Positions 51,930-53,679 of a stretch of 64,000 nt of DNA are shown here, in pieces. The notes below the pieces were generated by a model that was not told where the DNA came from, did no database searches, and saw only the letters and a program-made list of their open reading frames with translations. Within the stretch, counting starts at the first letter, position 1; every line of letters starts with the position of its first letter. The stretch spans positions 1-64,000 of the forward strand of contig JAOARP010000053.1 in assembly GCA_025210525.1 (NCBI GenBank), written 5' to 3'. The position numbers and the translations under genes were made by a program. This DNA is from Marinisporobacter sp. GTDB lineage: Bacteria > Bacillota > Clostridia > Peptostreptococcales > Thermotaleaceae.

Positions 51930-51979
51930 TTGCACAAATATACTTTGTTATATATAATCATATTAGAATATTCTAATAT
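51930..51979 (+). promoter_or_regulatory. Promoter and palindromic operator of the arsR-type operon
   Basis: TTGCAC at 51930-51935, a 17-nt spacer and TATAAT at 51953-51958 form a strong promoter. Right after it, 51960-51979 is a perfect 20-bp palindrome, ATATTAGAATATTCTAATAT, across the transcription start, as expected for autorepression by the ArsR-family protein encoded next. Confidence 0.82.
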
Positions 51980-51996
51980 AGTTAGGAGGGAAAATA

Positions 51997-52320
51997 GTGA
52001 GCTCTATGTATTATGAATTATCTGCATCACTACTAAAGGCGCTAGCCCATAAAACGCGTATTCAGATTCTTGAAAGGTTAAAAAGTGAAGAAGAGCTTTG
52101 CGTATGTCATATTTATGAAGATTTGGAATTAGAACAATCTAATGTTTCACAACACCTTAAAATCTTAAAGGATAAAGGTATTCTTACAAGTAGAAAAGAT
52201 GGATTAAAGGTTATGTATAGCGTAAGGTATAAGGAAATCTATACGATTTTAGATTTAGTAAAGGATATTTTATCAAAACAATTAGAAGAAGCACATGAAC
52301 AATTAGGGATAAAGAAGTAA
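51997..52320 (+). CDS. arsR: ArsR family metalloregulator
   Basis: A 107-residue winged-helix repressor. ALAHKTRIQILERLKS, then EELCVCHIYEDLELEQSNVSQHLKIL with ELCVC at about residues 34-38, the arsenite/antimonite-binding Cys pair of ArsR proteins (usual form ELCVCDL), then the wing. It would leave the DNA when a thiol-binding ion is present. GTG start, 6 bases after AGGAGGG. The palindromic operator lies at its own promoter. First gene of a probable arsR - permease - thioredoxin operon. Confidence 0.9.
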   Translation: MSSMYYELSASLLKALAHKTRIQILERLKSEEELCVCHIYEDLELEQSNVSQHLKILKDKGILTSRKDGLKVMYSVRYKEIYTILDLVKDILSKQLEEAHEQLGIKK

Positions 52321-52400
52321 TTGAAATATCGAATATAGAAAAATGAGTAAATGTTTTATAGGGAAGAAAAAATAATCATTTTAAGATAGGAGGGATGATG

Positions 52401-53348
52401 ATGTTAAAAGGATTTGCTGATTGGTTTGTAGAAAATGTATTAGGATTAGATTTACATTCTAGATTAGGAGATAGTGTAGACTTTTTTGTATATGATACAC
52501 TAAAAATTATTTTACTCCTTAGTTTTATGATTTTTACTATTTCTTATGTGAGAAGTTATTTCCCACCAGAAAAAGTAAAAGGGATGCTCTCGAAATTTGG
52601 TGGAGTGTGGGCTCATGTAGCAGCAGCTATATTAGGAGTATTGTCTCCATTCTGATCATGTTCAACAGTGCCTATATTTATAGGCTTCGTGGAATCGGGT
52701 ATTCCGCTAGGCGTTACATTTACATTTTTAGTTACATCACCAATTGTTAATGAAATTGCATTAGGATTTTTATTCATCAGCTTTGGCTTTAAAATAGCAT
52801 TTCTTTATACAATTGCAGGAATGATTATAGGAATCGTTGCAGGGCTCATTATTGAAAAGCTTAACTTAACTCATTTAGTAGAAAGCTATGTTTTTGAGAT
52901 TCATATGGGTGAAGCTGTTATTGAAGAGATGGATCATAAAAAGAGATTGAAATTTTCTATTGATGCAGTAAAGGATATTGTAAAGAGAGTATGGCTTTAT
53001 GTAGTAATAGGAATTGGTATAGGGGCATGGATTCATGGCTATGCACCACAGGATTTCTTGGTAAAATATGCAGGACCTAATAATCCATTTGCAGTCTTTA
53101 TAGCTGTAGTATTAGGAATTCCTCTTTATTCAAATGCAGTAGGAACAGTTCCTATTGTAGAGGCTTTGATTGGTAAAGGGGTAGGCGTTGGAACAGCGCT
53201 TTCTTTCATGATGAGTGTGGTAGCCTTATCGCTTCCTGAGATGATTTTACTTAAGCAAGTAATGAAACCAAAGCTTATTGGGATATTCATTGCCATTACA
53301 GGGACAGCTATTATACTTGTAGGATATTTATTTAATATTATTCTGTAG
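52401..53348 (+). CDS. ArsP-like permease with in-frame TGA (probable selenocysteine)
   Basis: An integral membrane permease of the ArsP/DUF318 family, which exports trivalent arsenicals or related ions. The frame is open from ATG 52401 (6 bases after AGGAGGG) to 53348 except for one TGA at 52653-52655, codon 85. Sequence on both sides is in the same frame and fully conserved in style: GVLSPF-(TGA)-SCSTVPIFIGFVESG, where relatives have Cys (SPFCSCS). Reading the TGA as selenocysteine gives 315 residues, normal for the family. Hairpins at 52670-52685 and 52689-52707 could serve as a SECIS element. A Cys-to-stop mutation or read error is the alternative. Confidence 0.8.
52670..52707 (+). promoter_or_regulatory. 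Candidate SECIS hairpins after the TGA codon
   Basis: GCCTAT-ATTT-ATAGGC (52670-52685) starts 14 bases after the TGA. GTGGAAT-CGGGT-ATTCCGC (52689-52707) starts 33 bases after it and has G residues in its apical loop, as bacterial SECIS elements usually do. Both are within coding sequence. Which one, if either, binds SelB cannot be told by eye. Confidence 0.4.
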
Positions 53349-53445: not shown

Positions 53446-53679
53446 ATGAACATTAAAATTTTAGGTGGAGGATGTAAAAACTGTACAACACTTTATGAAA
53501 ATGCAGTAGAAGCAGCAAAAGAACTAGGGATTGATGCAGAATTTGAAAAGGTAACACAGATGAAGGACATTTTATCCTTTGGGGTAATGAAAACGCCAGC
53601 TCTTGTAGTAGATGGTGCTGTGAAGGTTTCTGGAAGAGTTGTTTCAAAGGATGAAGTAAAGGAAATATTAAATAAGTAG
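53446..53679 (+). CDS. Small thioredoxin-family protein
   Basis: A 77-residue thioredoxin-fold protein of the MTH895/TM0996-like 'redox-active disulfide' group. MNIKILGGGCKNCTTLYENA has the CxxC active site at residues 10-13. VMKTPALVVDGAVKVSGRV contains the cis-Pro. AGGAGGGG precedes the ATG. Such proteins are regular partners of ArsR and ArsP-like permeases and could keep the permease Sec/Cys residue or the substrate reduced. That role is inferred. Confidence 0.88.
   Translation: MNIKILGGGCKNCTTLYENAVEAAKELGIDAEFEKVTQMKDILSFGVMKTPALVVDGAVKVSGRVVSKDEVKEILNK

Follow-up and report, generated by a model that had tools for sequence, protein, structure and literature searches.

Does the single TGA inside an ArsP-like permease gene of the window (the whole 64,000-nucleotide stretch of Marinisporobacter sp. 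DNA analyzed here) end a protein chain, or is it read as selenocysteine (Sec)? Rereading the frame bore out the original prediction that it is interrupted nowhere else: positions 52401 to 53348 specify 315 residues, the sole in-frame TGA is codon 85 as counted from the ATG at 52401, and the frame closes with a TAG. The motif context reads ...ILGVLSPF-U-SCSTVPIFIGF... As had been anticipated for automated annotation, a standard-code listing of open reading frames (ORFs) splits the gene into two pieces, 52395-52655 and 52668-53348. When read through, the product scores 246 bits against PF03773 (ArsP_1; gathering cut-off, 32.3) across residues 25 to 312. The 3' piece alone scores 197.8 bits and the 5' piece alone 28.6 bits, which is below the curated cut-off of 32.3. 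A six-frame scan of the window for TGA codons joining at least 40 upstream and at least 80 downstream open codons returned seven bridged cases, among which the permease TGA is the only one on the plus strand; the other six are on the minus strand. An internal-repeat test scored 79, with 76 as the highest shuffled value, which is suggestive only, and a phmmer search of the Protein Data Bank returned no solved homolog up to an E value of 1.

The permease gene and its surroundings

The gene stands between arsR and a gene for an ArsE/MTH895-type thioredoxin, in that order, behind an inverted repeat. The upstream regulator with its palindrome and the downstream thioredoxin had been described as intact, and the ORF listing, family models, and a repeat check agree. 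Coordinates are collected in Table 1.

Table 1 Features of the permease locus, in window positions
Feature	Position	Strand	Details
Inverted repeat, probable ArsR operator (putative role)	51955-51984		87% complementary; 51960-51979 form a perfect 20-bp palindrome; lies shortly before arsR
ArsR/SmtB metalloregulator, CVC motif (ELCVC)	51997-52320	+	PF01022; NF033788 over cut-off
PF03773 ArsP-like permease, TGA predicted to be read through as Sec	52395-53348	+	Possible starts at 52395, 52398, and 52401
TGA, predicted Sec85, first Cys of PF[C/U]SCS	52653-52655	+	Gene comparison
Hairpin H1, probable SECIS core	52670-52685	+	GCCTAT/ATTT/ATAGGC; 6-bp stem; 14 nt after TGA
Hairpin H2, possible accessory SECIS part	52689-52707	+	GTGGAAT/CGGGT/ATTCCGC; 7-bp stem; 33 nt after TGA
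ArsE/MTH895-type small thioredoxin, CKNC motif, probable partner	53446-53679	+	TIGR00412 over cut-off

The same genome has another full-length PF03773 permease, distantly related and with FCSCS intact (L024:4573-5526, contig C32), and two pairs of half-length PF03773 permeases (L024:8265-9300 and L025:5267-6279), in which the stop of the first gene overlaps the start of the second. One further TGA-bearing family match, at C32:26836, was rejected as a recoding candidate: it belongs to a half-permease pair, and its first TGA is an ordinary ATGA overlap stop.

Recurrence of TGA at the motif codon

Homologous genes were collected from family, order, class, and phylum samples, which overlap, from the order of genome G603, and from a search of genome contigs. 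The 125 genes fetched came to 115 distinct ones after removal of identical DNA; the motif residue was read in these fetched genes and not in the other matches of the genome searches. The TGA proved not to be peculiar to the window: 22 distinct genes, from 21 genomes, have TGA at the motif column and 93 have Cys, numbers that give no frequency because TGA genes were fetched by preference. The TGA always takes the place of the first Cys of the motif, where the original prediction had put it in the window gene, and the same codon recurs in 21 other distinct genes. The motif PF[C/U]SCS is present in all 125 fetched genes, none of which has TAA or TAG at this codon. Random stops in homologs, named beforehand as evidence against a selenoprotein, were confined among the 125 to the truncated or decayed copies L112, L128, and L129. 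A 26-sequence alignment, with TGA entered as C, shows no variation at C85, S86, C87, or S88.

The exchange of Cys and TGA that was to be looked for at this column is frequent. Twelve of the 16 genomes in the family sample have a match at an E value of 1e-30 or better, and eight have a single-TGA copy, 80 to 100% identical. A TGA copy at the motif column was found in 10 of 128 matching genomes in the order sample (393 searched), where an eleventh, G221, has a frameshifted copy; in 3 of 24 in the class sample (391 searched); and in 10 of 120 in the phylum sample (398 searched). Genome G251 has a partial match with one TAA. The most distant TGA cases are 51% identical. Among close relatives the residue varies: Cys is present in L045 (82% identity) and TGA in L072 (77%). 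Carriers of the TGA form include a cultured environmental strain, Anaerosolibacter carboniphilus DSM 103526 (L044). TGA and Cys copies occur together in genomes G001, G012, and G862. Mapped onto a tree of 110 proteins, the Cys/Sec label must change at least 10 times (starred branches force 6 of the changes), compared with an average of 20.5 for shuffled labels; the exact number is soft because the method was quick, branch support was SH-aLRT only, and several branches are long. For this tree the motif column was masked, identical proteins were merged, and L112, L128, L129, and L069 were left out. Plasmid records with a relative number 158, all under 60% identity, and the motif, read in one of them, is the Cys form. 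The 2.6-Mb Acetoanaerobium sequence NZ_CP154629.1 (L157), entered as a plasmid, is perhaps a chromosome.

Purifying selection acts on the part of the gene that follows the TGA. In comparisons of the window gene with seven TGA relatives, dN/dS was 0.06 to 0.15 after the TGA (finite dS in six of the seven comparisons) and 0.03 to 0.19 before it. The codon that precedes the TGA is also constrained. Phe84 (window 52650-52652) is encoded by TTC in all 22 TGA genes versus 17 of the 93 Cys genes, 76 of which use TTT. At a UUU UGA junction, tRNA-Phe could slip one base forward while the UGA waits, and the release-factor-2 site CUU UGA is a known slippage site. The strict UUC would fit a slowly decoded UGA and possibly serves to avoid +1 slippage.

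Downstream hairpins and the decoding of UGA

Both of the hairpins forecast to begin shortly after the TGA were located (Table 1). H1 is built from the codons of V-P-I-F-I-G, and in two of the six pairs both partners are silent third positions. Across the 22 TGA genes, 132 of 132 cells are paired, and every gene has all six pairs. The outer silent pair appears as G-C, A-U, C-G, G-U, and U-A and the inner one as U-A and G-C, with no mismatch at either. Both sides have changed in 21 cells, and two pairs show compensatory changes. The covariation score of 0.465, against a shuffled mean of 0.152, was reached by none of 500 shuffles, and sliding the partner strand by one to three columns gave pairing of 26 to 46%. 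Both silent pairs form in 22 of 22 TGA genes versus 19 of 93 Cys genes, or 17 of 87 after six rows were dropped from the comparison (the truncated or partial L112, L128, L129, and L069 and the outgroup L040 and L041). Among Cys genes that encode the same P[IV]FIG peptide, the count is 10 of 46 (Fisher P = 1.6e-10; kinship is ignored in all of these counts). All six pairs are also present in 11 of the 87 Cys genes, and pairing in some Cys genes arises in part because the PIFIG peptide favors it.

H2 is less uniform. Over the TGA genes 81.8% of its cells are paired, with compensatory changes and a covariation score matched by none of 500 shuffles. All seven pairs form in 12 of the 22 genes, namely L140 and the 11 near-clade genes; the remaining 10 retain three to five of the seven in the same register, and a shifted stem was recognized by eye in L105, L144, L145, L146, and L149. 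Silent differences at codons +5 to +14 among the 11 near-clade TGA genes were 0.24, compared with 0.474 gene-wide, and two sets of 11 Cys genes showed no such dip (0.575 versus 0.569 and 0.437 versus 0.471). Folding energies, expressed relative to synonymous recodings, were lower in the TGA genes (mean z, -1.50; n = 22) than in the Cys genes (mean z, -0.56; n = 87; Mann-Whitney P = 3e-4). The window's own 48-nt segment is not unusually stable by this measure (z, -0.18).

That a SECIS element follows the TGA was upheld in one respect and not in another: the hairpin carries compensatory silent changes, but neither hairpin agrees with every term of the bSECIS model. As given in the available part of a 2026 review (PMC13188914), that model has a loop of 3 to 9 nt, a stem of 4 to 16 bp, a UGA-to-loop distance of 16 to 37 nt, a G in the first two loop positions, and a minimum free energy of -7.5 or lower; the same source states that a subset of bacterial SECIS elements falls outside it. 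Compared by hand, H1 fits in loop (4), stem (6), and spacing (20), and its loop, AUUU, has no G. H2 fits in loop (CGGGU, with G second) and stem (7), and its spacing of 40 lies outside the range of 16 to 37. In genes with both hairpins, a folded H1 may shorten the path and so bring the GG loop of H2 within reach. H1 is a SECIS candidate that covariation supports and that the usual model does not cover.

The genome itself is equipped to insert Sec. Of the four components to be sought, selB (402.5 bits), selD, and tRNA-Sec (74.5 bits, about 3.3 kb downstream of selB) all match their models above cut-off, and SelA was recognized by eye in the ORF directly upstream of selB; the four lie in one cluster. 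SelD also carries an in-frame TGA, in SGUAAKIGP (L009:1732-1734, contig C29), and its standard ORF listing starts past that codon. Above-cut-off selB was present in 20 of 20 TGA genomes tested (the L046 genome lay outside this test) and in 50 of 56 genomes without TGA at the motif column among their matches, the residue having been read only where a gene was fetched. Carriage of selB, though required, does not tell TGA genomes from Cys genomes, and its use as a contrast was set aside. Of 11 TGA genomes searched for tRNA-Sec, 10 have it, the one without a hit being G603 (80% complete); of 17 other genomes, 16 have it too. In G221, whose frameshifted copy has FCSCS, neither selB nor tRNA-Sec was found. 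Past the tRNA-Sec gene of the window's genome lie ABC transporter genes (L009:11937-14886); the binding protein among them is SsuA-like (94.7 of 163.5 bits), and the match to SaoX is weak (45.1 of 300 bits).

From these comparisons we conclude that the TGA at codon 85 is almost certainly decoded as Sec; SelB would read UGA85 with the guidance of the hairpin or hairpins just downstream. A trivial account would be that the gene is a pseudogene or the sequence is in error, the TGA being a nonsense mutation or an artifact. The frame is indeed formally split, and decay does occur in the family, as in L112 and L129, which carry multiple stops outside the region of the match, and in the frameshifted G221. 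However, TGA recurs at one codon in 22 distinct genes, drawn from 21 separate genomes, TAA and TAG never occur there in the fetched genes, selection is purifying past the TGA, the silent changes in H1 are compensatory, and the operon neighbors are kept, all of which make this account exceedingly improbable. Programmed termination, in which an 84-residue product and a separate chain from an internal start would make up a two-part permease, draws on the GTG at 52668 that opens the 3' frame and on the two-gene half-permeases of the same genome. Unlike the division of those pairs, which lies near the middle of the protein, the cut here would fall inside an invariant motif; moreover, no ribosome-binding site is visible before the GTG at 52668, and full-length Cys homologs are single open frames. 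We consider it very unlikely.

The UGA might instead be read as a residue other than Sec, through suppression or a frameshift bypass, and the strict TTC before it does show that the junction is under selection. Yet Cys is the only alternative residue at the column (93 genes), selB accompanies the TGA in all 20 genomes tested, and a half-permease gene of the same genome ends normally at TGA, so that readthrough of this kind is scarcely credible.

Relation to known permeases and proposed function

The closest functional parallel is ArsP, a methylarsenite efflux permease. The likeness consists of PF03773 membership, the position of the motif, an adjoining ArsR-type regulator, and an ArsM neighbor in one relative, and it is a likeness to a family model and a motif rather than one drawn by direct comparison with a characterized ArsP sequence. 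ArsP orthologs have been defined by PXCSCXXXP, according to the available part of PMC5552862. The window permease differs, reading PFUSCSTVP, and conforms only if Sec is counted as Cys; a filter that requires Cys, as described there, would discard Sec forms. Since ORF calling in addition splits the gene, Sec-type pumps are likely to escape arsenic-resistance surveys.

Two named families of the same superfamily come near. SO_0444 (NF033936) is a Cu/Zn efflux transporter whose selenoprotein form, with UxC in the motif, is annotated in GenBank and catalogued in the portion of PMC13188914 available; the window protein scores 90.8 bits against its curated cut-off of 300. Among the 398 genomes of the phylum sample, a single one yielded an SO_0444 member (L156); it has no stop, and its CSC, in ...LCSCGVVP, looks to be at the same site when compared by eye, unaligned. 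The nearest NCBIfam model is SaoE (NF040736), of the selenoprotein-rich Sec-assisted organometallic (SAO) system, against which the window protein scores 117.6 bits (curated cut-off, 325); SaoE is not among the Sao selenoproteins named in the available portion of PMC13188914. A 51%-identical TGA protein, P0002, also falls below both cut-offs, and no NCBIfam model (June 2026, including families credited to Haft 2023 and to Haft and Tolstoy 2025) was reached by the window protein. On a plasmid of Peptoclostridium acidaminophilum (H25/L158) the same ArsR, permease, and thioredoxin genes occur in the same order; there the permease has the Cys form, TPFCSCSSIP, and is annotated simply as a permease.

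The original prediction knew of no characterized selenoprotein in this permease family. That statement needs qualifying, as the UxC form of SO_0444 is already catalogued within the superfamily, and it holds to the extent that the window gene lies outside SO_0444. Among the titles and abstract openings listed by literature searches, none concerned a Sec-containing permease of the ArsP type, the only related entry being SO_0444 in the part of PMC13188914 available. Because its scores are far below the SO_0444 and SaoE cut-offs, we judge the window permease to be a putative new selenoprotein subfamily; one Sec form is already known in the superfamily, and priority is uncertain. A membrane permease of the arsenic class would thereby be added to the bacterial selenoproteome. 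Because Cys and Sec forms occur naturally as pairs at a single site, in some cases within a single genome, the reason why a transporter would use Sec becomes directly testable.

We propose that the ArsP-like permease of this ArsR-controlled operon is a membrane selenoprotein in which Sec85 and Cys87, two residues on, would form a selenolate/thiolate site within a hydrophobic stretch. During export this site may bind a thiol-seeking metalloid, likeliest As(III) or methyl-As(III), and the ArsE-type thioredoxin may keep the Se/S pair reduced or hand over the metalloid. Export of As(III) or methyl-As(III) is the probable role of the permease; whether Sec85 serves as a direct ligand in transport is close to an even bet.

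The chief rival of the metalloid-ligand role is a redox switch, in which a Se-S bridge between Sec85 and Cys87, opened by the thioredoxin, would gate the permease and Sec85 would not be a metalloid ligand; both roles can coexist. The UxC spacing and the frequent thioredoxin neighbor speak for a switch, which is favored also because Sec usually replaces a redox-active Cys. Matches to both ArsR and thioredoxin flank the permease in 19 of 22 TGA loci versus 61 of 93 Cys loci, as counted in flanks of 0.6 to 2.5 kb per locus. However, ArsR, ACR3, and ArsM neighbors suggest metalloid handling. At L141 the Sec permease is preceded, in order, by ArsM, one more ORF, ArsR, and thioredoxin and followed by ArsR and then ACR3, two genes on from the permease; ArsM and ACR3 both exceed the cut-offs of their models. 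At L148, ACR3, over its cut-off, directly follows the permease, and a nearby methyltransferase scores below the ArsM cut-off. The CSC motif is, besides, the very one used to recognize ArsP (PXCSCXXXP, in the available part of PMC5552862), and we hold a switch in place of a ligand to be unlikely. The substrate could also be another soft ion, such as Hg, Sb, a selenium species, or the Cu or Zn of the SO_0444 name, given that PF03773 subfamilies such as SaoE and SO_0444 are named differently. L140 (genome G1099) points the same way: no ArsR or thioredoxin was matched within about 2.5 kb of its Sec permease, which adjoins a convergent CopZ-type gene (L140:1932-2480) with an in-frame TGA of its own, in GSUC; the CopZ-type protein scores 61.9 bits against zf_CopZ, over cut-off, and falls below both NCBIfam CopZ models. 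Against such a substrate stand the CVC motif of ArsR, the ArsE-type thioredoxin, and the ACR3 and ArsM neighbors in other lineages, and we find it doubtful, if a real contender.

With export of a metalloid as the preferred reading, a wider proposal can be put forward tentatively. These permeases may be widespread, recurrently arisen metalloid pumps in the window's phylum (the nearest named relatives being Clostridia), in which selenium itself would be the main ligand for the metal along the path of transport, the SECIS would be nonstandard, and a strict UUC would guard against slippage at the UGA. Among the neighborhoods surveyed, that of L105 (genome G603) has a gene for a Cys-rich DUF2703 protein (L105:770-1366) directly upstream of the Sec permease.
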